Virus record (IMG/VR): IMGVR_UViG_3300000116_000294
Span: 1 to 21,493 of that record
Length of the DNA: 21,493 nt
DNA from: a virus
Direction: 5' to 3' (one strand)
Both the position numbers and the translations under genes were made by a program. Position 1 is the first letter of the stretch, and each line of letters opens with the position of its first letter. Positions 1 through 20,306 of the stretch are shown here, one piece after another. The notes under the pieces are model-generated. The model searched no databases and had not been told where the DNA came from. It was given only the letters and a program-made list of their open reading frames with translations.

Positions 1-111
1 AGCTGCTTTATACGCTTTACTACCTTTACGAGCACTCTTTTCACCACGCTTTCTCTTAGCGTTAATATTATCCCATAGACCCTCTGTAAAGTATTCTTTA
101 AATGGTTTCAT
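1..111 (-). CDS. Small basic phage protein, 3'-truncated by window edge
   Basis: The 37 visible codons start at an ATG (109-111) that overlaps the TGA of the upstream gene as ATGA, a translational-coupling arrangement. The peptide begins MKPFKEYFTEG, then LWDNINAKRKRGEKSARKG. The first ten residues fit the T4 internal-protein capsid-targeting peptide (T4 IPI begins MKTYQEFIAE), with a possible head-protease cleavage after Glu10 (F-T-E|G). The following LWDN-x-x-AKRKRGE stretch is strongly basic and looks DNA- or RNA-binding. I have a general impression of similar LWDNI-AKRKRGE proteins in marine phages but know no function. The gene continues left of the window, so length and C terminus are unknown. 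Being a real gene is well supported by the coupled start; the role is inference. Confidence 0.7.
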   Translation of the reverse strand, partial: MKPFKEYFTEGLWDNINAKRKRGEKSARKGSKAYKAA

Positions 112-1322
112 TTTCTTGTGCTTGTTTGGCCTCCGCTAAAGTTAGCTCTACTAAATTCCAATCTATCGACGAGCTTAACAGCACCACCAGCCTTACTAAC
201 GGCAACATAACCTTCTGGTGCAGTAACCTTTAAGGTACCATCTTCATTATCTAAAAAATGTTTAGTGTTGTAAGTAGCATTGTTATATTTGTTAACAAAA
301 ATCTGTTTAGCTTGTGATAGCAAACGACTCACCTTAAAGATATTAACTATATTATCTTTTGACTGTTGAACTTCTGCTAACTTCTTTTTAAAGCTTTCTT
401 CTACCTTAAGCTTTCCAGCTTTTGACTTACGCTTTTCAATTTCCTTAGTCATTCTCGACTTAAACCAATCAACAAACCCGTTAAATGACATTTCTGCATC
501 CTCTAAGAACTTACCTTGCTGTATTTCAGAGTTAACATATATGTTCATTAGATCTAAAGGTAAGTCTTTATACTTTACCTTAATAGAGTCTGCTGTTTTA
601 ACTAAATCTTTAACTTGTTTAGCTTCATCCTTAGTTAAAGTAACAGTTCCTGTAGTATCAGTAAAGACTGCATCGTCAACCCATACACCAGGTACCTTTT
701 TAAGACCTTTAACGTTAATACCATACTGTGGAGGACTATCTAAATCGTTATAACCAGTATGGAAAACAATACCAAACACGGAATTTGCTATTTCTTGACC
801 TAATTTAGAGTCTGTCTCTACAGCATACTTAATGGTGTTAGGTTTAAAGGTGTAGTGAGGTACTCCATCAATAGTCTCTTTACCAATCATAGAGGTATCA
901 AACATAAAGTCACCTTGAAGTATACCTTTAATACCCAACTTAGGTAAGTATTTGAGAGCTTTCTTTAACTTATCAGCTAACCCAGGTGCATGCCCATGAT
1001 TCATTTCAATATCATTGTCAGAATAGTTAATCTTAGGCTCTCTATTGAATATAGATTTTGTACCTACAAAGAACTTACCTGTATCAGGATGCTTTCCAGC
1101 AAATATAGCTGGAGCTCCATCCCATTTAACAGAAGTGTTAACTTTTCTCTTACTCTTACCTTGTAAATGTGAAAGTAAATCGGTAATAAACCCACGTGCC
1201 GTACCATAACCCGCTTCTCCCTTAGTGAGAATTAATTCTTCTAAGTGTGTTAGGTGTGTGTTAGCTTTAGTAGCTTCTTCTATGAGCTGATATTGCTCAA
1301 AATATAGTTTAAAGTTCTTCAT
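108..1322 (-). CDS. Putative nucleotidyltransferase/ligase-like phage protein (DUF6267-like)
   Basis: A 404-residue protein. It shows a set of motifs in the order of covalent nucleotidyltransferases (DNA/RNA ligases, capping enzymes): motif I K66-W-D-G, with K66 the candidate AMP/GMP-accepting lysine; a motif Ia/III-like VGTKS (86-90); a motif III/IIIa-like LQGDFMF (135-141); a motif IV-like EGYV (370-373); and a motif V-like VKLV (382-385), followed by DRLEFSRANF. Residues 225-360 are an insertion rich in Lys and Glu with helical character, larger than in small RNA ligases. The N terminus MKNFKLYFEQ...LIEEA resembles a T4 capsid-targeting peptide with an L-I-E cleavage site near residue 16. 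It starts 2 nt after the stop of the 514-residue gene, so the two are co-transcribed. I think this matches the uncharacterised family DUF6267; that name is from memory. Activity (ligase, capping-like or inactive fold) is not established. Confidence 0.75.
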   Translation of the reverse strand: MKNFKLYFEQYQLIEEATKANTHLTHLEELILTKGEAGYGTARGFITDLLSHLQGKSKRKVNTSVKWDGAPAIFAGKHPDTGKFFVGTKSIFNREPKINYSDNDIEMNHGHAPGLADKLKKALKYLPKLGIKGILQGDFMFDTSMIGKETIDGVPHYTFKPNTIKYAVETDSKLGQEIANSVFGIVFHTGYNDLDSPPQYGINVKGLKKVPGVWVDDAVFTDTTGTVTLTKDEAKQVKDLVKTADSIKVKYKDLPLDLMNIYVNSEIQQGKFLEDAEMSFNGFVDWFKSRMTKEIEKRKSKAGKLKVEESFKKKLAEVQQSKDNIVNIFKVSRLLSQAKQIFVNKYNNATYNTKHFLDNEDGTLKVTAPEGYVAVSKAGGAVKLVDRLEFSRANFSGGQTSTRK

Positions 1323-1324
1323 AA

Positions 1325-2869
1325 TTAATGTACTTCTATGTGAAATCCTTGATCATCTGGTCTAATACCGAAAAATAGATGTTTTTTGGCCATTAGTTTA
1401 ATTAACTCAATAGCTGGTGTATTAATAATAGTATCATATCTTATTGATGCTGCCGTACCATCAGGTTTGTATACCAGTAACCACTTAAAAGGTTCAATAT
1501 GAGTCATGTAGTGCTTAAGATGCCACCCTCCTACTAAGTTAGCAATTTTTTGTCTAGGCGAATCACCAGGTATTGTATCAATAACATCGGATACAGCACC
1601 TTTAGGTAACTCTGAATTAAATTTTACACTTTTCTTACCAAACGAAACACCAGAGTATTTCTCCAAAAACTCAGGCACACTCATATCCGCTAAAACACTT
1701 GTACTTGTACTTTTAAGTTTATTAGCTGCTATCTCAGAGGGTGGGTTCGGCAGGCGTTTCCATTTTTTTTCTATCGCAAACCAAGCGTCATGCTTAAACT
1801 CCGGATAAGCCTTATTTATATATTTCTGGAGTTCTTCTAGTTGGTCTAAAGAAAAAATAGTCTGCGCCTTATCCTTAAAATTTAAATCACTCGTAATATT
1901 ATCCGGGAGCGGCTTTCTTATATCTTTATATATAGTTTCACGCGCCTCTTCGCGTTCATCTGCTATTGATATATTTCGCTGACTTATACCTGGACTTTTA
2001 CCATAAAATAATTGCTCTAACGCTCTAACGCTAGCTGATTTAATACCTTTACCTATTCTACCTTCTTGTTTTTTGAGCTCAATACTATCTCTATCACCAG
2101 AAGATAATAAAATATCACCTGACCCTTGAGGCTTAACACCACCATATAGGAAAGCCAATAAAGCCTCACCAGGACCAGCTGCACCTCTAGTTGCTGCTAA
2201 ATCACTTGCTGGTCTCATTATTTGTAAAAATCTACCTACATCTGTATCTAAAGCAAAATAAATTTTGTTATCATTATTTTCTGGATCCATAGACGACCAT
2301 ATGTTAAATGTACCATCACCTGCAGAATCCAGGTAAGATACAAAGGCTTTTTGTAATTCACCAGATGATATAATACCAAGTATTCTAACAAGTTCCGCTT
2401 TTACTGTCCGAGCATTTACTTTTTTATTATTATTTTTAAGTGTCAATTTAGCACTATCTATTAAAAACTGTTGAATCTTTTTTAATGTTGAGTTAAAACT
2501 ACTAACAGGCTCATCAAAAATCGTAGCTTTATTAGCAATTTTCTCTATTACTTCTGATATAGTGCCCATATCAGCCATACTCTTAACCTCATCATAGGTA
2601 TCTTGGAGCTGCTTTTTAGTGAGTCTATCAGAACCTACCCACTTACCATCAATCTTCATGATCATCGGGTTCCTAGACGTACTTACCTTAGCAATATCTT
2701 TTAATTCACGTGCGTTTACATCAGATAACTCAATTTGTTCTGTTTTACCCTCGTCATATTCAATAGTAACCTTAGCCTCACCTACTACATGTAAATTTTT
2801 ATTATCAGGTACTTCTTTACCTCTTACCCGACCATATAAATCAGCTAAATCTTTTCTATTATAGTTCAT
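1325..2869 (-). CDS. Large hypothetical late protein with PD-(D/E)XK-like signature
   Basis: A 514-residue protein I do not recognise by name. The mid-region contains a plausible PD-(D/E)XK nuclease core: E235 in GPGEALLAF, D252 in GSGDILLSS, and E264-L-K266 in SIELKKQEGR, i.e. Asp-x11-Glu-x-Lys with a preceding helix Glu, the spacing typical of restriction-endonuclease folds. Conserved-looking surroundings include MRPASDLAATRGAAGPGE (218-235). The N-terminal 100 residues hold a short beta-rich segment (KVTIEYDEGKTEQIEL) and the C terminus (445-514) is mixed alpha/beta. The start overlaps the stop of the upstream 110-residue gene by 4 nt (ATGA), and the next gene follows after 2 nt, so it is a central member of the leftward unit. 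Unlike its neighbours it lacks a capsid-targeting-like N terminus (MNYNRKDLADLYG). A structural role is the alternative. Confidence 0.72.
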   Translation of the reverse strand: MNYNRKDLADLYGRVRGKEVPDNKNLHVVGEAKVTIEYDEGKTEQIELSDVNARELKDIAKVSTSRNPMIMKIDGKWVGSDRLTKKQLQDTYDEVKSMADMGTISEVIEKIANKATIFDEPVSSFNSTLKKIQQFLIDSAKLTLKNNNKKVNARTVKAELVRILGIISSGELQKAFVSYLDSAGDGTFNIWSSMDPENNDNKIYFALDTDVGRFLQIMRPASDLAATRGAAGPGEALLAFLYGGVKPQGSGDILLSSGDRDSIELKKQEGRIGKGIKSASVRALEQLFYGKSPGISQRNISIADEREEARETIYKDIRKPLPDNITSDLNFKDKAQTIFSLDQLEELQKYINKAYPEFKHDAWFAIEKKWKRLPNPPSEIAANKLKSTSTSVLADMSVPEFLEKYSGVSFGKKSVKFNSELPKGAVSDVIDTIPGDSPRQKIANLVGGWHLKHYMTHIEPFKWLLVYKPDGTAASIRYDTIINTPAIELIKLMAKKHLFFGIRPDDQGFHIEVH

Positions 2870-3198
2870 GAATTAATATCTGTAGTTAAACCTAACGATC
2901 TTTTAGTATCGACTGGGCTTATTTCAAGCATATTTTTTATATTCTCTAGAACATCTTTTGGTCTATCTCTTAAAAGTGTAGCCTGTAGCTCCTTAACAAT
3001 GTTAGCTTCAGTTTCATCAGGCTTATGTAAGAAAGCTTTTATTACTAACTCAATAAGAAACCTTTCTCCTTCTGAAGTAAGTACTTCAGGTTCAGGTGCA
3101 GGTGGCTGTTCGGCAGCATCAGTAGCATCTACAGGCTCTTGCTCATCTTGCTCGATGAGTGCCTTCATATATTTTTCGAATAATCTATTAGTTTTCAT
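2866..3198 (-). CDS. Small acidic hypothetical late protein
   Basis: A 110-residue protein of unknown function. Residues 1-17 (MKTNRLFEKYMKALIEQ) form a short basic/amphipathic helix ending in L-I-E, resembling a capsid-targeting peptide with its protease site. Residues 17-42 are acidic and Pro/Ala-rich (EPVDATDAAEQPPAPEPE), probably a disordered linker. Residues 43-100 look helical, with ERFLIELVIKAFL and NIVKELQATLL. The start overlaps the previous stop by 4 nt and its own stop overlaps the next start by 4 nt, so translation is likely coupled. No enzymatic motif is visible. Small head-internal or assembly protein is an inference from the N terminus and context only. Confidence 0.68.
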   Translation of the reverse strand: MKTNRLFEKYMKALIEQDEQEPVDATDAAEQPPAPEPEVLTSEGERFLIELVIKAFLHKPDETEANIVKELQATLLRDRPKDVLENIKNMLEISPVDTKRSLGLTTDINS

Positions 3199-3602
3199 TG
3201 TGCTGCTTTTGTTAATGCTTGTTCAAGTTCTTTTGTAGCTTTCTGAAAAACAGGTATAGCCTTCTTGTTTACCTTCTCCCTATCCTTTACCGCTTTTTTT
3301 GCTGCTTGAGCACTAGTACCTAATATTTTTCCAGCTAAACCACCCGCACCACTTTTAGCTTTAGATGCTAGGTTACTAACAGCGCTATCTACATTATCCT
3401 TACTAGTCATTGCCAGCATTTCATTATCTTCTGACTCTCCGGTCATTTCCTCTTTAAACGCTTGAAAGTTGTCAAAAGCAAAATCACCACCTGTAATAGT
3501 GAACTGGTTCTCTACTCTACCGGATGGATCTGTTAAGGTCACAGTATATTCACCATGCTCTCCCGGTTGATTCTCTGCAATAAGCTTTAAAAACTTCTTC
3601 AT
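3195..3602 (-). CDS. Hypothetical late protein with internal-protein-like N terminus
   Basis: A 135-residue protein. It begins MKKFLKLIAENQPG, closely matching the pattern of the T4 internal-protein targeting peptide, with I-A-E|N as a candidate prohead-protease site. Residues 15-50 are predicted beta (YTVTLTDPSGRVENQFTI), residues 70-105 are Ala/Gly/Ser/Lys-rich and low complexity (KAKSGAGGLAGKILG), and residues 105-135 are a basic helix. A late-promoter octamer CATAAATA lies 5 nt before the ATG (3608-3615), so this gene probably starts its own late transcript. It is followed, with 4-nt overlaps, by the 110- and 514-residue genes. The family is unknown; a head-internal or DNA-associated protein is the most economical guess. 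Confidence 0.7.
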   Translation of the reverse strand: MKKFLKLIAENQPGEHGEYTVTLTDPSGRVENQFTITGGDFAFDNFQAFKEEMTGESEDNEMLAMTSKDNVDSAVSNLASKAKSGAGGLAGKILGTSAQAAKKAVKDREKVNKKAIPVFQKATKELEQALTKAAQ

Positions 3603-3607
3603 ATCTT

Positions 3608-3615
3608 TATTTATG
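3608..3615 (-). promoter_or_regulatory. T4-type late promoter variant (CATAAATA)
   Basis: A one-mismatch late octamer on the minus strand, again exactly 5 nt before the ATG (3600-3602) of the 135-residue gene. It spans the stop codon of the upstream 163-residue gene. The identical spacing to the 4824 element supports it. Confidence 0.55.
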
Positions 3616-4102
3616 GTAGAAGTGATAGTTTTATATTGATATTATTCATAAGTTCAGCCTCTAGTTGCTGTAACTCATATCTCTTCAAAAAATTACGAAA
3701 CTTACGGAAACTAACAGCTGATGCATCAACATTTGCGAAGGCTAAGTAATCTCTCTCGCTTAAAAACATCTTAAATGTATTATCTCCATACGTTATATTA
3801 GTGGGCAGTGCGTTAAATATACGCCTAACAAGTGTATTTTCTATCTTCTCATTGATTTGGTAGTAAAACCACTTCTTCTTACGGTCTTTTGAGCAAATAC
3901 TAATAAGCTTATTTGTAATAAAGTGTATACCAAGCTTATTCTTGTCTTTTCTACTGAGTTTTAGTTCATTCTCCGTAATATACCACGTATATTCATTGTA
4001 GGAGGCCTCTAGCAGTCGATTTAAGTTAATAAAAACATAACCTCTGACGTTATCTTCTTCTTTTTCCAATTCGAACGTTGATAATTCCATTGTAATACTC
4101 AT
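3611..4102 (-). CDS. Hypothetical protein, overlaps the GIY-YIG gene
   Basis: A 163-residue protein (159 if the Met codon at 4088-4090 is used). It contains YVFINLNRLLEAS, EYTWYITENELKLSRKD, KKWFYYQINEK and a C-terminal helix KFRNFLKRYELQQLEAELMNN. It is rich in aromatic and basic residues, with no catalytic motif that I can identify. Either start lies inside the 3' end of the upstream GIY-YIG gene, giving a 41-53 nt out-of-frame overlap; no later in-frame Met would remove the overlap without losing most of the protein. Its stop lies within the late-promoter element of the next gene. The order nuclease then unknown protein could be a two-gene unit, but no function follows from sequence. Confidence 0.65.
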   Translation of the reverse strand: MSITMELSTFELEKEEDNVRGYVFINLNRLLEASYNEYTWYITENELKLSRKDKNKLGIHFITNKLISICSKDRKKKWFYYQINEKIENTLVRRIFNALPTNITYGDNTFKMFLSERDYLAFANVDASAVSFRKFRNFLKRYELQQLEAELMNNINIKLSLLP

Positions 4103-4448
4103 CTTTTAGTAAAACCTCACGTTCTACCTGTAGCTTCATCTCATTATAAGAGAGTTCCCATTTACTATCACAACTTATAAGTATTTCAAACTTAAATTTA
4201 TCCTTACCAAGCTTAATTATGTCTTTATTTAGCTCATTTGATGAAGAAGTATAAGTTCTCCAATCAGTTTCAACGATTTGATGCCGTTTATTCTTTTTAC
4301 CCTTAAGAGGTGGTCGTTTACGTACTGATTGGCACTGCTTCTTACCAATATACTTACGATTATTAGTGAGATTCGTTATCTCGTATATAAAACCGTACGG
4401 AATAGTATCTTCTGTAAGCAATCCCTGCCAATGTCCTAGATCAGCCAT
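4050..4448 (-). CDS. GIY-YIG family endonuclease
   Basis: A 132-residue protein counted from the ATG at 4446-4448. That start overlaps the preceding stop as ATGGCTGA and is preferred over an upstream in-frame start at 4490 lying wholly inside the previous gene. The N-terminal GIY-YIG nuclease core is clear: PYGFIYEITNLTNNRKYIGKK (residues about 17-37) holds the GIY variant GFIY and YIG, followed by a basic segment (QSVRKRPPLKGKKNKRH) with the expected Arg. A C-terminal Glu (QVEREVLLKDEYYNG) and Asn (GIINVR) complete the usual metal-site and Asn positions. It is of the small stand-alone type found in phages as homing or host-DNA-degrading nucleases; it does not resemble T4 DenA beyond the fold. 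No separate DNA-binding module is visible, so the target is unknown. Confidence 0.85.
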   Translation of the reverse strand: MADLGHWQGLLTEDTIPYGFIYEITNLTNNRKYIGKKQCQSVRKRPPLKGKKNKRHQIVETDWRTYTSSSNELNKDIIKLGKDKFKFEILISCDSKWELSYNEMKLQVEREVLLKDEYYNGIINVRIGKRRR

Positions 4449-4818
4449 TGTTGATCTCGTAACAATTACAATGCTCACAATCCGGACCACATTTACACTC
4501 TTTTATCGGCATTCCACAACAAGCATCCGGACACATTCCCTCTTCATCTTCTTCTCCGGTTAAGAATACTCCATCTATACCCTTCTTCTTTTTATCTTTC
4601 TTTTTCTTAGATAATAACCACTTCTTGTTTGTACCCCTACCTAACATCTTTGGTCTTGCATCACCAGGTGCGTATGTATCTCCTGAGTTAATTTGACCAT
4701 CTGGATTAAAAATAGTACCACCTTGCGCCGATGCTCCAAGAGCTCCACCTCCGGTAGAAATATCCTCAGCTAGTAACTTAAAGAACCTCTCTTCAAATTT
4801 ACCTCTTGACTCTTGCAT
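4441..4818 (-). CDS. Late protein with Cys-rich C-terminal tail
   Basis: A 125-residue protein counted from the ATG at 4816-4818; the in-frame codons upstream lie beyond the late promoter and inside uvsY. It starts MQESRGKFEERFFKLLAEDIS, an amphipathic helix with an L-A-E|D site resembling a head-targeting peptide. A Gly-rich stretch (STGGGALGASAQGG), a lysine-rich stretch (LLSKKKKDKKKKG, about 68-80) and an acidic patch (GEEDEEG) follow. The last 30 residues contain eight cysteines (96-119: CPDACC, ECKCG, DCEHCNC), which suggests a small metal-binding knuckle. A perfect T4 late octamer TATAAATA lies 5 nt upstream, making this the first gene of the leftward late block. Function unknown. Confidence 0.72.
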   Translation of the reverse strand: MQESRGKFEERFFKLLAEDISTGGGALGASAQGGTIFNPDGQINSGDTYAPGDARPKMLGRGTNKKWLLSKKKKDKKKKGIDGVFLTGEEDEEGMCPDACCGMPIKECKCGPDCEHCNCYEINNG

Positions 4819-4833
4819 ATTTATATTTATACT
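4806..4833 (+). promoter_or_regulatory. Sigma70-like promoter of uvsY
   Basis: TTGACT (4806-4811), 16-nt spacer, TATACT (4828-4833); each box has one mismatch to consensus. The expected start point, 6-7 nt downstream, is at about 4840, the first base of the GTG start codon. The -10 overlaps the opposing late octamer (4824-4831). Confidence 0.7.
4824..4831 (-). promoter_or_regulatory. T4-type late promoter (TATAAATA)
   Basis: A perfect TATAAATA octamer on the minus strand, separated by 5 nt from the ATG of the Cys-rich-tail gene (4816-4818). In T4 this octamer occupies -13 to -6, so +1 would be the A of the ATG. It is a likely target of the gp55 encoded in this window. Confidence 0.7.
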
Positions 4834-13789: not shown

Positions 13790-14092
13790 ATGGCAGAATC
13801 AAGTTACTTAGATAGTCCAGCAGATGATGGTACTAACAAAGCACATCCAGCGTATTGGCGAGGCCGCGCACGTGGCACAGCAGAAATTTTAAAGATCATT
13901 AAGCGAGTTGCTGAAGGTAATGATCCCGGCGACGGTGAGATTAACTCTCCGGTTATTGAAGCTGCGCGCCGTATTCTTCTTACATATAGAGAAACACTCA
14001 TCCACGCTTCAGATAAATCAACATATTTATCGAAGCAAGCGCAAGAGGCTATTAAAGAGTGTGAAGAGTTAGCTAAGAAGATTGCTATTTAG
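13790..14092 (+). CDS. Small hypothetical protein downstream of gene 43
   Basis: A 100-residue protein from ATG 13790; an earlier in-frame TTG at 13757 lies inside gene 43 and is less likely. It contains an N-terminal KAHPAYWRGRARGTAEI motif and is otherwise helical (EAARRILLTYRETLI, QEAIKECEELAKKIAI). I do not recognise a family with known function. It is the last gene of the rightward replication block. Its TAG shares bases with the TAA of the convergent glycosyltransferase gene (14089-14092), and the apparent terminator lies about 55 nt further on, inside that gene. A replication-accessory role is only suggested by position. Confidence 0.7.
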   Translation: MAESSYLDSPADDGTNKAHPAYWRGRARGTAEILKIIKRVAEGNDPGDGEINSPVIEAARRILLTYRETLIHASDKSTYLSKQAQEAIKECEELAKKIAI

Positions 14093-15783
14093 TTTTCTCT
14101 TCTTTCTTCTGGCTGATAATGCTTTATGCGATCATGCCAGATAGGTGAGGCCAGCAATATTGCTGGTCTTATTTTTTCTTCTTTTGTAAGCTGATATATA
14201 TGTGACATCCATGTTTGTTCAAATGGATTAGCCCACGTGGTATCGATGAACATTTTTTTATTACCCTCTTTACTGACTATCATAGGCCAGTTCGCGTAAT
14301 AAATATCACCATCTATAAAAGATAATTCGTCTATAGTATTTATATTCTTAAATTCCGTAAGTGGTACATTTGGATCAAGTCCTGTCTCCGGTAATTTGTC
14401 ATATTCAGGCCAGAATTTTGTTCTTATATCTTGAGGTACATTATACCAGGAGCATTGCTTATCGTTATCAAAATAAACTTCTGTAAAAGACAACTTTAAG
14501 AAATCATATTTATGAGTTAGCATTATCTTATGAGTAATATTATACAAATCTGGTATATATTTCTTAAACCCATGTCTACAAAACTGACCCTCAAATTCAG
14601 GTGGGTTAGATGTCATATCATCCTCAAAGAAATACATAAAATCAGCATTGGATTTATCAAAATGTTCTGCTGCAGCCTGCCTACCTCCGCAAATTCCAGT
14701 ATTACCTTCTAAGCTAATATATTCAAAGTTATATTGTTGTGCAATTTCTCTATTTTTATTACGTGCTTCTTCATTAGTAGAATTATCCAATAACACTAAC
14801 GATGGTCTCTCTAACCATTCTGGTGTTTTTTTCATAGACTCAATAGTGTGTAGTACTTGTTCAGGAAAATTAAAAGTTAATATATATAGATTTGTCTTTA
14901 TGTTTCGCGCATCGTTATCTGTGGACTCGGTTATATAGTTATTTTCAACTTCACTAAATGTTACATTATTATCTCTTAAAGCTAGCGCAAATTTAACTAT
15001 ATGTCCAGTAATATCTAATTCAAACCGTTGATACAAACTAGGATCGAGATACGACATAACAGTAAAGATAGACTCTTCCGTACCCATTAAATCTTCGCTA
15101 CAAGCTCTATCAAGCAGAGTATAGTATGCCGCGTTAGCATTATTTATTTGTTGTCTCTTACCACCGAAAAGACCACCCCTACATACATACTTAACCTCCT
15201 GGCCAGCATAACTATTTAATGAGTTTATTTCAAATCCATGCACCTCAGGTCTTTTTTCATATGGATAACTTAAAAATAAAAACTTATCACAAACAGTAGT
15301 CAATTTTTCAAGTATATTCTCATTTACTAATAAGTGATAATCTACAGTATTTGTAATACCAGCATCTAACCAATAGAAGTAATCGGTATTAAATGGATTA
15401 AAGCATGTAGCATCATTTAATAAAAACATTTTAGATTGAACAATTGGATTATACCACATATTTGAGGCTTGAGGGGAATCTCTAAGCCAACTGGCGGAAT
15501 CTAGCCACACATCACTTGTTCTTATTTGTTGGGTTCTATCCCAAAACGGTTCATACAACCGCTTTAAGTCAGAAAGCTCCATTACATATACTGAGGTATT
15601 AGATTTATCTCTTTTCTCCCAAACAATATGTTCATATTCTTTTGGTATGTATATAAATAAATTTTGTGGTATATCTAGAAATCTTTTAAAGCATTCAATA
15701 TAATGATCGAAGTCTCTACCTAACCGGTTTATATTCCATAACCCGGTAACTATAGTCATATTTTTATCAATCTGTTGTTTCAT
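14089..15783 (-). CDS. Two-domain glycosyltransferase: HtrL_YibB-like + GT2
   Basis: A 564-residue fusion. Residues 10-280 match the bacterial HtrL/YibB family: TIVTGLWNINRLGRDF (10-25), FYWLDAGITN (136-145) and a RGGLFGGKR segment (202-210). Residues 296-560 form a GT-A/GT2-type domain: LYILTFNFPEQVLHTIESM, LVLLDNST (329-336), LEGNTGICGGRQAAAEH (358-374, the GN-x-G-x-GG-R nucleotide-sugar region) and the metal-binding FFEDDM (385-390). The ATG overlaps the upstream stop as ATGA, so it is the last gene of the five-gene leftward cassette. HtrL-type proteins occur in LPS core loci of enterobacteria, which supports surface-glycan chemistry, but the acceptor here is unknown. Confidence 0.85.
   Translation of the reverse strand: MKQQIDKNMTIVTGLWNINRLGRDFDHYIECFKRFLDIPQNLFIYIPKEYEHIVWEKRDKSNTSVYVMELSDLKRLYEPFWDRTQQIRTSDVWLDSASWLRDSPQASNMWYNPIVQSKMFLLNDATCFNPFNTDYFYWLDAGITNTVDYHLLVNENILEKLTTVCDKFLFLSYPYEKRPEVHGFEINSLNSYAGQEVKYVCRGGLFGGKRQQINNANAAYYTLLDRACSEDLMGTEESIFTVMSYLDPSLYQRFELDITGHIVKFALALRDNNVTFSEVENNYITESTDNDARNIKTNLYILTFNFPEQVLHTIESMKKTPEWLERPSLVLLDNSTNEEARNKNREIAQQYNFEYISLEGNTGICGGRQAAAEHFDKSNADFMYFFEDDMTSNPPEFEGQFCRHGFKKYIPDLYNITHKIMLTHKYDFLKLSFTEVYFDNDKQCSWYNVPQDIRTKFWPEYDKLPETGLDPNVPLTEFKNINTIDELSFIDGDIYYANWPMIVSKEGNKKMFIDTTWANPFEQTWMSHIYQLTKEEKIRPAILLASPIWHDRIKHYQPEERREN
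14148..14178 (+). terminator. Rho-independent terminator of the rightward replication block, inside the convergent gene
   Basis: Stem AGGCCAGC (14148-14155), loop AATATT, GCTGGTCT (14162-14169) with one G-T pair, followed by a T-rich tract TATTTTTTC. The T-tract is on the plus-strand side only, so it serves the gene 43 unit. It lies in the 3' coding part of the HtrL/GT2 gene. Confidence 0.65.
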
Positions 15784-16961
15784 TTTGTATATTTTAAGAA
15801 CTCGTCTGGAACAAAAAACCGCTCTTCTACTTTTAACATTTCTGGATGTTGTGTACCTACGTGCATTGGACCATTCGCGTGTTTTAAAACAGGAAAACTA
15901 GTAACTCCTTTATTTTTATCCCACTTTTTAAAGGTGTTAAATTTTTTATTTTCAGGTTCATAAGGCATAATAATCATATCGATATTTTTAGAAAGGAAAT
16001 AATAAGAAAATAACACATCATCGGAATATGTTTTACCTAAAAAATCCGTAAAGAACTCATCCTTAAATAATTTTCTCTTATATGATACAGATTTATAGTG
16101 CTGTATTAATTTAGTAGTTAGAGGTTTTGTTACACTGACTATAAAGTGATTTCTATTATCATCATAATCTCGAGGATCATACACTCCTTCAGTTTTCGGT
16201 GCAATGCCTCCAGCTCCATCATAGCCACAAACACATTCTTTAAATCGTTCTTGATGTTTACGGTGCTCTTCTACCATTTTATTGTGATATATTAAATCAT
16301 CATCAACAACTAATATTATGGTTTCATCATTTAATACACGCTTTATTGTAGGTATCATTTTTGTTGAAGGTCCGATATCGTCTGTTCTAAAAATTTTGAG
16401 ATGCTCGTATCTTAGCTTAAATTTTTCTAACCACTCTGGTATTATGTATTTTTTGTTTGTAATCTTTGATATATATGGAACGTTAAAGTGCACTTCATAA
16501 TCAGTATCATCTTGCTCACATATTGAAACTAAAACAGCTGGTAAAGAATCTTCATGATCAAATTCTAACCTTTCTGGTACTGTAGTAAGTGTTACTATAA
16601 GAGATGGTTCAATGTGACTTCCATGAATCATTTTAATTTCTTTATAACCTTCATTATATTTAGAGTTTATTTCATTCTTTAATAAAACACGCTGACTATT
16701 ATACTCTCTTATCTTTATGGCACGACGACCTATTTCTTCTAACCCTAAAATATCCTCATTACCCTTCCGTATATCAGATTCATAATTCCATATCTTAGCA
16801 TTTATATCATACAGCTTATCAACGTATGATTTAATATCTTTATAGTTGTCAATTTCTTGCGACAAAGCATCAATCTCGTTATTATTATCAATAGATAGCC
16901 GTTCTTGTTTTAATTTACAGATGCTATATCTATCTACTATATCTCCTATTGCAATTTTCAT
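15780..16961 (-). CDS. DUF6165-like N-terminal domain fused to GT-A glycosyltransferase
   Basis: A 393-residue protein. Residues 1-115 (IGDIVDRYSICKLKQERL ... RVLLKNEINSKYNEGYKEIK) resemble the DUF6165-like domain found next to bacterial polysaccharide glycosyltransferases (family name from memory). Residues 119-390 are a GT-A-like domain: SLIVTLTTVPERL (120-132), DIGPSTKMIPTIK (195-207), an Asp-rich metal site VVDDDLIYH (218-226) and a late SDDVLFSYYF segment. The gene is separated from the GT25 gene by a 21-nt gap holding a TACAAT element, so it may have its own promoter; downstream it overlaps the HtrL-like gene by 4 nt. Donor and acceptor are not readable. Confidence 0.8.
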   Translation of the reverse strand: MKIAIGDIVDRYSICKLKQERLSIDNNNEIDALSQEIDNYKDIKSYVDKLYDINAKIWNYESDIRKGNEDILGLEEIGRRAIKIREYNSQRVLLKNEINSKYNEGYKEIKMIHGSHIEPSLIVTLTTVPERLEFDHEDSLPAVLVSICEQDDTDYEVHFNVPYISKITNKKYIIPEWLEKFKLRYEHLKIFRTDDIGPSTKMIPTIKRVLNDETIILVVDDDLIYHNKMVEEHRKHQERFKECVCGYDGAGGIAPKTEGVYDPRDYDDNRNHFIVSVTKPLTTKLIQHYKSVSYKRKLFKDEFFTDFLGKTYSDDVLFSYYFLSKNIDMIIMPYEPENKKFNTFKKWDKNKGVTSFPVLKHANGPMHVGTQHPEMLKVEERFFVPDEFLKYTK

Positions 16962-16969
16962 GTGTATAT

Positions 16970-16998
16970 ATTGTAAGTTTTTTTATTTATTAAGTAAA
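16970..16998 (-). promoter_or_regulatory. Candidate promoter of the DUF6165-like/GT gene
   Basis: On the minus strand TTTACT (16998-16993), 17-nt spacer, TACAAT (16975-16970), then 8 nt to the ATG at 16961. The -35 lies within the 3' end of the GT25 gene. AT-richness makes chance matches likely. Confidence 0.35.
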
Positions 16999-17765
16999 TA
17001 TTTTTTAATTTTTAAATTTTTATAGTCTATGCTTCCTTCAAAGCATCCCTTAATCCATATTTCGTGATCTACAAATTTATGATCTAAATCAGAATAAGAT
17101 GGTCCTTGAATAAAAATATTTGGAATAGTCATATAAACTTTTAAATCATTATTTAAAATAGGATCTGAGTGTGTATAATCTTTGCTAAATAATCTCCATG
17201 TCTTTTTGTTGTTTAGCTCTGAAATAAATAAATCAATAGGCCATAAGTATGTGCAATGCGTGTTTTCTTCATACTTTAAGTTATCAACAATAAATTTTGC
17301 ATACTTTAAAGAGCCTATATAAGCATGTGACATTACAGTTTTTTCTGGTCTTAAAAACATGTTTGAAATTTGTTTTACTGGTCCTTCCGGTCTAGTACCA
17401 AGCCATAATACGTCAGGTTTATGCTTTAAGAAGTCTTTTTTAATATGCTTTACTACTTTTTTTATATCTACTTCTTTACTTGAACATTTTTCCTGATCAG
17501 GGTATTGTGGTTCGTAAAAAACGTCTAATTTTATATCATCTTCTAAGTATAGAACATAATCCCAATTATTTTTAATTTGTAATTTAGCGATTTCAATATG
17601 TGAAAACGTACAACCATCGCGCTTTTTTATTGCATCAAATCGTTCAACACCCGTTATATTAGTACTCTTAAGAGTATTCCACACACTCTTTAATCTATCA
17701 TTCCTACTTTGTAAATTAATTACAAAACCTGCATCAGCTATTTTCTCACCATACCATTTTATCAT
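16983..17765 (-). CDS. GT25-like (LPS/collagen type) glycosyltransferase
   Basis: A 260-residue protein, the typical length for bacterial GT25 enzymes (LOS/LPS galactosyltransferases). Diagnostic motifs: FVINLQSRNDRL (14-25; family pattern vINL-x-R), FDAIKKRDGCTFSHIEIAK (43-61; family pattern GC-x-SH) and YVLYLEDDIKL (70-80; acidic metal site). The C-terminal half retains WLGTRPEG and SHAYIGS. It overlaps the upstream GlcNAc-transferase-like gene by 4 nt (ATGA). By eye this gene looks more AT-rich than the polymerase gene, with sampled lines of about 22-32% GC against 48% in one gene 43 line, hinting at separate acquisition; this is a spot check only. Confidence 0.85.
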   Translation of the reverse strand: MIKWYGEKIADAGFVINLQSRNDRLKSVWNTLKSTNITGVERFDAIKKRDGCTFSHIEIAKLQIKNNWDYVLYLEDDIKLDVFYEPQYPDQEKCSSKEVDIKKVVKHIKKDFLKHKPDVLWLGTRPEGPVKQISNMFLRPEKTVMSHAYIGSLKYAKFIVDNLKYEENTHCTYLWPIDLFISELNNKKTWRLFSKDYTHSDPILNNDLKVYMTIPNIFIQGPSYSDLDHKFVDHEIWIKGCFEGSIDYKNLKIKKYLLNK

Positions 17766-19048
17766 AATAAATCTTTTGTTAAAGGTTGTTCAAACTTTTC
17801 TGCCCACCCTCTATCTGATGAAACACCCCAAAATATTAATTTAGCCGGTAATTCGTTACTACAAAACATCTTTTCATAATGTATCGTAGTGCCCTTAGAG
17901 ATAAAATCATCTAATCGTTGATCGGTTATATATTCTTGATTTATACCTGTACCGTTTTTATCATCAAAAGATACTAATATACTCTCGTAATCATTTTCAG
18001 GAAGCATATCTTTTGTTATATTAATTAATTGGTAGTGTGATTTAATAAACGTATCTTCCCATTTCGTAAGACCATAATTATTTTGAATTGGGTTAGGTGC
18101 AAATTTATGGTCTATTGTATATTGTTGAAATGCTTTAAGTTTAAAGTTAATTCCTGCATATTTTTCATATTCAGTTAAACTACGAACATGTCCTAGATTA
18201 TAATCTCCTAAATCATGACCACTATCTTCCACTTCTAATAACTGACGTATTCTAGAACGTGCTATATCATTACCCTTCCACCATTGATCGTCACCTCTCT
18301 TGTGTTGATCATCCCAAACTAGCATCCCACTTCGTTCTTCTCTCATAGTAGCATGCCATATAACTACTTTATGTGGATGAAATAAATCATAACCATGAGT
18401 AAAAGATCTAACTGAAAGATTCAGTTCTTCACCGGCGAAGAAAATATTCGGATCGTGTCTAACTTCCTTGGCCCACTTATTAGTTCCGAATGCAAAATGA
18501 CCGCTTAAGAATCTTGCAGGTATAGGTGATTTAAGATCCTGCCAGTTGGGTATACCCCCAGGTCTAATAAAGATAGTTCCAAAAGGGTAGAAGCAACCTG
18601 CCAATGACATCCAAGGTTCCTTTACTCGTTCTTCCGGATCATTATATGGGTTATACATAGGTGAATAACCACCTATAATTGGGTTATAACCTTCGTTAAC
18701 TAATTCATCATGCCAAGATATTAAAGTACTATCCCAGTTTTTAGTAAATCTGTGATGAGAATCTAACTGACATACAAAATCTTCATCAGTAAGTAACTTT
18801 TCATTTATTAAAGCTCTAGCGTATGGTAGACCTTTAGCTTTTGTATAGTGTATTTTTTCTATTTTAAAGCGCTTATCATTTTCATATTCAGATAAATCAT
18901 CAAACCCATCATCTGGATTATATTGCAAGCAAATACCAAAGTGTATTCTTTCTGGAAACTCTGCATTTTCTAAAGCATCCTTTATTGTTGGTATTAACTC
19001 TGGATCTCTATAAGCGGGTAGATGAAGTAGAATAGTTCTTTTATCCAT
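17762..19048 (-). CDS. GlcNAc-transferase-like glycosyltransferase (GT60-like), copy B
   Basis: A 428-residue protein of the GlcNAc family, which includes the Dictyostelium Skp1 hydroxyproline GlcNAc transferase and bacterial/phage homologues. Motifs: LPAYRDPELIPTIKDAL (10-26), the metal-site-like CQLDSHHRF (93-101), HDPNIFFAGEE (198-208), VRSFTHGYDLFHPH (213-226), and GHVRSLTEYEKYAGINF in the C-terminal half. It is clearly a paralogue of the upstream 421-residue gene, sharing all these motifs in order. It overlaps that gene by 8 nt (ATGGATAA) and the GT25 gene by 4 nt. The family transfers GlcNAc in its characterised eukaryotic members; activity in phages is not known to me. Confidence 0.85.
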   Translation of the reverse strand: MDKRTILLHLPAYRDPELIPTIKDALENAEFPERIHFGICLQYNPDDGFDDLSEYENDKRFKIEKIHYTKAKGLPYARALINEKLLTDEDFVCQLDSHHRFTKNWDSTLISWHDELVNEGYNPIIGGYSPMYNPYNDPEERVKEPWMSLAGCFYPFGTIFIRPGGIPNWQDLKSPIPARFLSGHFAFGTNKWAKEVRHDPNIFFAGEELNLSVRSFTHGYDLFHPHKVVIWHATMREERSGMLVWDDQHKRGDDQWWKGNDIARSRIRQLLEVEDSGHDLGDYNLGHVRSLTEYEKYAGINFKLKAFQQYTIDHKFAPNPIQNNYGLTKWEDTFIKSHYQLINITKDMLPENDYESILVSFDDKNGTGINQEYITDQRLDDFISKGTTIHYEKMFCSNELPAKLIFWGVSSDRGWAEKFEQPLTKDLL

Positions 19049-20306
19049 TATTAATAACTCCTTCTATTCTATCTAGCCAACCATTCTTCTTGGACTGAGG
19101 CCAAACGATCCATTTATAAGGTAGCTCTTTGGTTGTAAACTCCCGCCAAATTTGATATGCATCTGTATCACTATTGTATGTATTTTTAATTTCCGTATCA
19201 GTTACATCCTTTCGGTACATTTCATTACCATCTTCATCCTCAAAAGCTAACGCCCAGAATATAAAATCTTCTTCACCGTTAAGACTGCTCTTATTTACAT
19301 CAACACAAAACTTAAACATGTTCAAGAAAGATTCATCATAACCCTTTTTAAGTGTAGGGTTAGGTGGGTAAAAATTATCGTGAGTGTATTGCTGAATACC
19401 CTTATCGCTAAAACGTATACCGGCATATTTTTCATAGTCATCTAAAGATCTTACTTCGCCTAAAATATGCTCACCCCCTTCATTAGATTGGAACTTCTCC
19501 CCGTTAATACCTAACAACTTTCTAACACGAGCATATGACTTCTTGTTAAGTCGTACCCATTGCTTGTGATCATCCCAGTGTTTTGAGCTACCGCTTCTGT
19601 GGTAATGGTGCCACATTATAGGAATATGCATGTGAAATAAATCATAACCATGAGTAAAGGCTCTAACAGCGATAGTTATTTCCTCACCGTGAAAATATAA
19701 TTTAGGATCATGCTGTACTTCCTTTGAAAACTTACCTAAAGTAAAGCAGAAGTGAGCAGAATAAAATCTCGCACGTACTGGGCCAGTGTGATCTTTCCAA
19801 TCAGGTATAGTTTCAGGTATAGTGTGTAATGGACCTTCTGGTGCGAACCGTTGATATCTTAATCTCCACGGCTCGTCAAGCTTTTCTTCTGTCTCTGGAT
19901 CATAAGATGGTAAGTATCCAGTAAGTAAAGGCTTCTTAACACCAGTTAATTGTAACGAGTAAAAAGTATTCTTAAGAATAGTATCCCAACCTTCTACAAA
20001 CCTATGATGTGAGTCTAATTGCAAAGTAAAATCTTCTTTTTTATATTTTTGTTGTATTAAGTTACGTGCCCAGCATGCTCCCTTAGATTTAGCAGCATCT
20101 AAATCAATAATAGTAAATCTATCATCAAGTAAATAGTCATCTAACTGATCCCACTCATCCTCTTTACTATGTTGCCAAGCAATACATATATGTAATGTTT
20201 TTGGCTCATCAGCTTTTTCTAACATATCTTTAAGAGTAGGTAAAAGTTCCTTATCTCTATACGCTGCTATTTGAACAAACACTGTCTTACCTTTATAAGG
20301 ACTCAT
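19041..20306 (-). CDS. GlcNAc-transferase-like glycosyltransferase (GT60-like), copy A
   Basis: A 421-residue protein and the first gene of the leftward glycosyltransferase cassette. Motifs: IAAYRDKELLPTLKDMLEKA (13-32), LQLDSHHRF (95-103), HDPKLYFHGEE (199-209), VRAFTHGYDLFHMH (214-227) and GEVRSLDDYEKYAGIRF. It is the tandem paralogue of the next gene; shared blocks align in the same order with little length change, so the pair probably arose by duplication. It starts at ATG 20304-20306, 11 nt after a TATACT element, facing away from the 116-residue gene; the 71-nt divergent gap probably holds both promoters. The acceptor could be hydroxylated virion protein or a surface glycan; the sequence does not decide. 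Confidence 0.85.
   Translation of the reverse strand: MSPYKGKTVFVQIAAYRDKELLPTLKDMLEKADEPKTLHICIAWQHSKEDEWDQLDDYLLDDRFTIIDLDAAKSKGACWARNLIQQKYKKEDFTLQLDSHHRFVEGWDTILKNTFYSLQLTGVKKPLLTGYLPSYDPETEEKLDEPWRLRYQRFAPEGPLHTIPETIPDWKDHTGPVRARFYSAHFCFTLGKFSKEVQHDPKLYFHGEEITIAVRAFTHGYDLFHMHIPIMWHHYHRSGSSKHWDDHKQWVRLNKKSYARVRKLLGINGEKFQSNEGGEHILGEVRSLDDYEKYAGIRFSDKGIQQYTHDNFYPPNPTLKKGYDESFLNMFKFCVDVNKSSLNGEEDFIFWALAFEDEDGNEMYRKDVTDTEIKNTYNSDTDAYQIWREFTTKELPYKWIVWPQSKKNGWLDRIEGVINNG

Follow-up and report, generated by a model that had tools for sequence, protein, structure and literature searches.

Introduction

The textbook example of protein cargo inside a phage head is the set of internal proteins of bacteriophage T4. 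This report concerns a cassette of minus-strand genes (positions 4831 to 1) on a 21,493-base fragment of a marine T4 relative from IMG/VR (IMGVR_UViG_3300000116_000294), the whole of which is referred to here as the window. Several products of this cassette begin with leader peptides that resemble the T4 capsid-targeting sequence. In T4 this sequence is found on the internal head proteins IPI–III and Alt, and it is cut by gp21 (PMC9026906). The window proteins share with these a short Lys/aromatic propeptide, a hydrophobic-x-Glu site, and variable bodies, and a gp21-family protease is known from relatives of the window. They differ from the small basic proteins of T4 in that at least six leader-bearing genes are clustered, with enzyme-like bodies of up to 514 residues, and in that there is a second, longer class of leader and an exchange of cargo that maps to the Glu.

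Three other systems are close enough for comparison. The ejection proteins of the giant phages phiKZ and SPN3US are also head cargo directed by propeptides, from which a related gp21-like protease cuts after Glu (PMC5694885, PMC9026906); their propeptides are mostly much longer (>100 residues) than the window leaders. The virion enzymes of cyanophage S-CREM2 (PMC10665884), namely a SAM hydrolase, a kinase, a Cas9-like protein, and a cytidylyltransferase, carry the same type of leader as the window proteins, whereas a ligase-fold protein and a PD-(D/E)XK-like nuclease are among the predicted cargo of the window, and the two lineages are distant. T4 gp61.1 shares with one window protein the leader, a copy of the N-arm of its own phage's gp23 across the cut site, and a Lys-rich part, but it is without the Cys-rich tail of the window protein.

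In this report, we propose that the cassette is probably a late operon for head-core cargo carried behind capsid-targeting propeptides that are removed by a gp21-type cut. The type of mechanism is that already known for the T4 internal proteins. The novelty lies in a cassette rich in enzymes, in cargo exchange that falls on the cut site, in the capsid-arm copies, and in a connection to T4 gp61.1. A search of the open-access literature turned up no description of capsid-targeting leaders for T4-like phages of marine origin.

Results

Leader Peptides at the Cassette N-Termini. An earlier note on this DNA had listed five minus-strand proteins with candidate leaders, and the N-termini were found as described at starts 111, 1322, 3198, 3602, and 4818. 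The list was incomplete, since a sixth and longer leader at 2869 had been overlooked. The Lys/aromatic register of T4 is exact in MKPFKEYFTE/G (82–111, where the slash marks the junction) and in MKKFLKLIAE/N (3573–3602). In the leader at 1322, MKNFKLYFEQYQLIEE/A (1275–1322), the aromatic residues keep the register but the cut site comes later, and the leaders at 3198, MKTNRLFEKYMKALIE/Q (3151–3198), and at 4818, MQESRGKFEERFFKLLAE/D (4765–4818), are looser. The leader of the 514-residue protein, MNYNRKDLADLYGRVRGKEVPDNKNLHVVGE/A (2777–2869), is longer and resembles the T4 signal only loosely.

A search pattern, M-K/R/Q-x-[FYLI]-x-x-[FYL]-hydrophobic-x-E, was set from the signal of T4 IPIII. 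It matches IPII, IPIII, and gp61.1 among the ~97 open reading frames of the T4 stretches that were fetched. The pattern, with Glu or Asp allowed at the last position, was applied to the non-redundant N-termini of 69 loci related to the window through the DUF6267 gene. Matches were found at 19 of 233 cassette N-termini, compared with 1 of 127 N-termini elsewhere and 1 of 1,071 internal Met positions; at the internal-Met rate the cassette count has a binomial probability of ~1e-30. The single match outside the cassettes is a member of a retropepsin-like cassette family found at another place. A broader pattern for the N-terminus (R2) was discarded as too permissive.

The junction is kept in orthologues while the leaders themselves diverge; within a leader, conservation is highest at the P1 Glu and the hydrophobic P3. 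The DUF6267 genes carry ~30 different leaders (including MKNFKLYFEQYQLIEE, MISFKKYFITHGLLTE, MRSFKQFHLNSQLLTE, and MKPFKQYYNTIRLIEE), every one of which has hydrophobic-x-Glu at the junction, directly followed by the conserved body sequence (K)ANTHLTHLEEL. In more distant DUF6267 genes the leaders are unrelated but end in the same way (MLTLINFSKYITE/D in Melnitz-3 and MYNDLLVE/D in HTVC008M). Nearly all members of the 3198, 3602, and 4818 families hold the hydrophobic-x-Glu junction as well. The leaders at 3198 and 4818 had been judged the weakest and the most prone to chance, but relatives were found in 43 and 38 loci, respectively, with junctions such as ALIE/Q, LYNE/D, ILNE/N, RLLE/Q, and GLTE/A in the 3198 family and LLAE/D, LIKE/D, MLEE/D, and VLKE/S in the 4818 family, and the leader at 4818 proved the best supported of all. 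The enrichment and the retention of the junction support the assignment of T4-type capsid-targeting leaders. A Peptidase_S77/gp21 gene (PF03420, 111–117 bits) is present in 5 of the 13 longer relatives, at ~28–31 kb from the DUF6267 gene in four of them and at ~73 kb in the fifth; the window record is too short to reach a head module.

Exchange of Cargo at the Junction Glu. The 514-residue protein (1325–2869, minus strand) belongs to a family of ~60 proteins that occupy the same site in relatives. The family was sorted into seven types of leader and 14 body clusters, with leader type B in the window protein. Eight of the body clusters occur behind leader A, and body 2 is found behind four leader types. 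For 133 pairs that share the leader but differ in the body, the identity was 0.74, 0.89, 0.68, and 1.00 over positions -4 to -1 and fell to 0.27, 0.08, and 0.05 at positions +1 to +3. The reverse was found for 38 pairs with the same body and different leaders, where values of 0.11, 0.18, 0.32, and 1.00 before the junction were followed by 0.76, 0.61, and 0.74. The identity of 1.00 at the Glu is built in, because the junction Glu was assigned by pattern in this family; the abrupt change on either side of it is not. P3 is hydrophobic in 42 of 43 junctions and P1' is Ala in 20 of 43. The window and three near-identical genomes (L003, L004, and L059) have one leader and different bodies. These comparisons show, at the level of sequence, that leaders and bodies recombine exactly at the junction Glu.

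Members of this family in L016, L022, L024, and L031 have tandem leaders, in which two serial hydrophobic-x-Glu sites precede one body, as in MNDLEKVYAAKVLNE/DISLDS...LYNVVRINE/AKV. The tandem leaders resemble the redundant cut sites of the phiKZ propeptides.

The body contains the signature GxGE...GD[LI]...E-x-K (G232, G234, E235, G251, D252, E264, and K266; 2072–2176, minus strand). All 40 divergent members compared retain E235, D252, E264, and K266, at a mean column identity of 17%. This E...GD...E-x-K arrangement corresponds to the signature of PD-(D/E)XK-like nucleases, and a nuclease function is predicted. Pfam and PADLOC gave only scattered weak matches to the family. With the structural model (predicted local distance difference test, pLDDT, 63), Foldseek returned nothing significant and further structural comparison nothing usable. 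No close relatives of the 2869 and 3602 proteins were found among isolated phages. Hidden Markov models of the 2869, 3198, 3602, and 4102 families found no match in S-CREM2, S-SZBM1, and the HTVC008M and Melnitz-3 stretches.

Leader-Bearing Proteins in Published Virion Proteomes. For S-CREM2, 52 virion proteins have been published (PMC10665884). All 219 S-CREM2 genes were translated and scanned with the T4-register pattern. The matches were the SAM hydrolase gp6, gp13, the kinase gp14, gp136, and the cytidylyltransferase gp154, and 5 of 5 are in the virion (Fisher P = 0.00065). A looser spacing, which was tried first, gave 5 of 7 (P = 0.009). The Cas9-like nuclease gp12 (L094:7704–10313), also detected in the virion, has a 25-residue leader ending in FMAE/A; the four virion enzymes of this phage that are neither structural nor lytic (SAM hydrolase, kinase, cytidylyltransferase, and Cas9-like) are all leader-bearing. 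In the section of the S-CREM2 paper that deals with these enzymes no leader is mentioned, and carry-over is left open (PMC10665884).

Cytidylyltransferases recur in cyanophage virions (PMC3037559, PMC9146016, PMC9602691). The one detected in S-SZBM1, for which 30 virion proteins were reported (PMC9146016), starts with MRFRQFIIE/A and is caught by a slightly wider motif. The DUF6267 relatives of S-SZBM1 (141; L099:32478–33671) and S-CREM2 (gp87; L096:8890–9777) have no leader, and neither is listed among the published virion proteins.

A Copy of the Capsid N-Arm in the 4818 Protein and in T4 gp61.1. The first gene of the cassette (4441–4818, minus strand) encodes a leader, a mimic of the N-arm of the major capsid protein gp23, a Lys-rich stretch, and a Cys-rich tail. 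A profile made from the 4818 family alone matches the gp23 of relatives (E values of 1.6e-9, for the gp23 of relative G001, and 1.9e-8). Residues 16–59 (4642–4773) share 67–71% identity with the N-arm of gp23 from near relatives, which serve as a stand-in since the gp23 gene of the window phage lies outside the fragment. In the alignment, LAE/D of the 4818 protein coincides with IEE/G or IEE/S of the capsid protein. That position corresponds to the mature N-terminus of the T4 capsid protein (FLTE/A), and T4 gp23 is cut after residue 65 (PMC9026906).

The arm copy follows the phage lineage. The window 4818 protein scored 154 against a window-like gp23 and 101 against that of G001; for the G001 protein of this type the scores were 133 with the gp23 of G001 and 102 with the window-like one. 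The counterpart in S-CREM2, gp160, which was detected in the virion, scored 95 against its own gp23. For S-SZBM1 134 the arm comparison gave only a weak tie. A Lys/Arg-rich stretch follows the arm in all of the 4818-type proteins compared, including gp61.1.

T4 gp61.1 (NC_000866, 18966–19130; L104) starts with MKTFKEFIKE/DMVAGDSGGN... and consists of a leader, a copy of the T4 gp23 N-arm, and a Lys-rich tail. It is identical to the T4 gp23 N-arm at 17 of 37 positions spanning the cut site, and it scored 69 against T4 gp23 and at background against the rest. The bodies of gp61.1 and of the window 4818 protein, which were compared through the capsid arms rather than directly, each match their own arm, with the arm of the other lineage at background. 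gp61.1 is annotated as hypothetical and falls in a PHROG of unknown function, and no link between gp61.1 and gp23 was found in the open-access literature. From these features, we predict that T4 gp61.1 is a head protein and a substrate of gp21.

A T4-type late promoter box, TATAAATA, lies 5 nucleotides before the ATG at 4818 (4824–4831, minus strand). The box stands exactly 5 or 8 nucleotides before the 4818-type gene in 17 of 23 distinct relatives, compared with 1 of 94 other cassette-family N-termini. There is no general excess of TATAAATA in the window (6 found, 5.7 expected); only its position before the 4818 gene is meaningful. The box may point to late expression of the cassette. With the usual spacing of T4 late starts, the transcript would begin near the ATG of 4818-type genes, and the mRNA would have little or no 5' leader. 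In G001–G003, a comparable spacing of 2–12 nucleotides was seen ahead of several other genes.

The DUF6267 Protein. The gene at 108–1322 (minus strand) encodes a DUF6267 protein (PF19782, 324.4 bits against a cut-off of 27) whose domain starts at residue 21, past the leader. The residues K66, D68, and G69, which form the KxDG motif of nucleotidyl transfer, are invariant in 25 members. The structural model has a pLDDT of 77, with the leader below 50 and partly helical. When this model was compared with known structures, RNA/DNA ligases made up 49 of the best 50 rows, with a best Z of 8.1; T4 RNA ligase 2 gave a Z of 6.9. The invariant motif and the ligases at the top of the fold comparison support the ligase-like label given earlier to this protein. 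The ligase fold is likely but not certain, because Foldseek gave no significant match with the same model. A sequence search of the PDB with the DUF6267 and 2869 proteins gave no match.

Other Leader-Bearing Genes. The gene with the leader at 82–111 is partial and leaves the record at base 1. Its relatives continue as LWANINAKRKRG... followed by a cytidylyltransferase-like domain; a full-length relative of 253 residues in L002 matches PF01467 (CTP_transf_like) at 28.7 bits, with a cut-off of 21. The leader at 3198 belongs to an acidic protein of 110 residues (2866–3198), and that at 3602 to a protein of 135 residues (3195–3602) whose body differs between relatives. The cassettes of relatives have additional members, retropepsin-like proteins (PF05618, just under the cut-off) and Pol-beta-like nucleotidyltransferases (weak matches), with leaders such as MKKFKQFFAE/K and MINFKTFFES. 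Small PF05618-like proteins with perfect leaders are found at L007:11010–11453, L013:4777–5217, and L002:2488–2928, and these could possibly be a head-packaged protease.

Discussion

The leaders are read as cargo signals because the junction is conserved, cargo is exchanged at the cut, relatives encode gp21, a late box stands before the first gene, the 4818 site is in register with the capsid site, and leader-bearing proteins are present in S-CREM2 virions. Capsid targeting by the leaders is well supported, and cleavage after the Glu is strongly indicated by the sequences. For the remaining steps, we infer the following. The block from 4831 to 1 would be a late operon for prohead-core cargo, in which a short propeptide would dock each cargo protein to the scaffold core of the prohead by the capsid-targeting logic of T4. 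A gp21-type protease would then cut after the Glu of hydrophobic-x-Glu, and the mature protein would remain in the head of the window phage with the DNA and probably be ejected into the host. The cargo would consist of the ligase-fold DUF6267 protein, the PD-(D/E)XK-like nuclease in the exchange slot, and the cytidylyltransferase-like protein, with Pol-beta-like and retropepsin-like cargo contributed by relatives. The 4818 protein, with its capsid N-arm copy and Lys-rich stretch, may link the capsid wall and the DNA; that it ties DNA or cargo to the wall is a guess.

Several observations weigh against this proposal. At 2869 the leaders are longer and resemble those of T4 only loosely, and their junction was located with a pattern in which Glu is obligatory. 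In some leaders, position 10 is Asp and not Glu (MRTFIEYFED and MQTFKEYYED). The virion data come from other phages and not from the window lineage, and the leader-bearing virion proteins could be carry-over, as the S-CREM2 authors allow (PMC10665884). S-SZBM1 lends no support under the same motif, since its three matches are absent from the 30 detected proteins, in a proteome that is shallow. No head genes lie within the window, a fragment of 21.5 kb.

The alternative that survives best, although we consider it unlikely, is that the peptides dock proteins to the prohead core or scaffold and stay on, so that the proteins would be scaffold-associated assembly factors that are not injected. In the T4 leader the residues for targeting (positions 4 and 7) are indeed separable from those for processing (8 and 10), and Asp at position 10 blocks processing while it permits targeting (PMC9026906), which gives weight to the Asp at the cut position of some leaders. 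However, the best-conserved leader positions are the P1 Glu and the hydrophobic P3, gp21 is encoded by relatives, and the 4818 site is in line with the maturation site of the capsid protein. Still less probable is an explanation by recombination islands, in which the starts would be conserved through the translation signals of overlapping genes and as homology for exchange, with a Glu that has no function. In its favour, several neighbouring genes overlap by 4 nucleotides, and the near-identical contexts of the window, L003, L004, and L059 have one leader with differing bodies. Against it stand a breakpoint at hydrophobic-x-Glu in seven leader types, the same junction in single-bodied families (DUF6267 and 3198), and the virion enrichment in S-CREM2. 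The peptides are short and isolated weak matches such as S-CREM2 gp37 do occur, but chance or ordinary N-terminal amphipathic helices are very unlikely given the enrichment and the junction statistics.

The proposal of head-core cargo can be widened, more tentatively and with confidence a little short of an even call, to a modular virion-delivery platform in T4-like phages. Such a platform would combine a propeptide set by the prohead core of each lineage with cargo that is attached at the protease site and passed between phages through recombination. At its head would be a protein of the 4818/gp61.1 type, with a copy of its own lineage's capsid N-arm, that tethers DNA or cargo to the wall of the capsid. 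If this is true, the host receives nuclease, ligase-like, and nucleotidyltransferase enzymes alongside the DNA. A nuclease packaged with the genome would have to be kept inactive or be blind to phage DNA. The exchangeable cargo slot would be a place to seek anti-host or anti-defence functions. Head cargo is otherwise found one proteome at a time, and its prediction from the genomes of abundant marine T4-like phages would become possible with a leader that can be read and a junction that is exact. The same leader logic would explain the recurrent metabolic enzymes of cyanophage virions, and it gives a testable hypothesis for T4 gp61.1, whose function is unassigned in a model phage.

Remaining Features of the Window

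The block between 4831 and 1 on the minus strand forms a compact operon. Two of its genes have no recognisable leader. One encodes a protein of 163 residues (3611–4102) with neither a Pfam nor a strong PHROG match, and the other a SegE-like GIY-YIG endonuclease (4050–4490; PF19835, 107.7 bits). Both were rejected as cargo because they lack a leader, and the SegE-like protein is probably not packaged. The SegE-like protein also matches PHROG 447, which is labelled NAD synthetase, apparently a misnomer in view of the Pfam match to SegE_GIY-YIG.

The plus strand carries T4-type genes for replication and late control, including UvsY, UvsW, and the late sigma factor gp55, together with gp47/gp46-like proteins and a DNA polymerase that were read from the open reading frame translations. 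The polymerase gene is the only stretch of the window with DNA matches among isolated phages (T4-like Aeromonas phages). Five large putative glycosyltransferases, assigned by reading, adjoin this gene on the minus strand (14089–20306).

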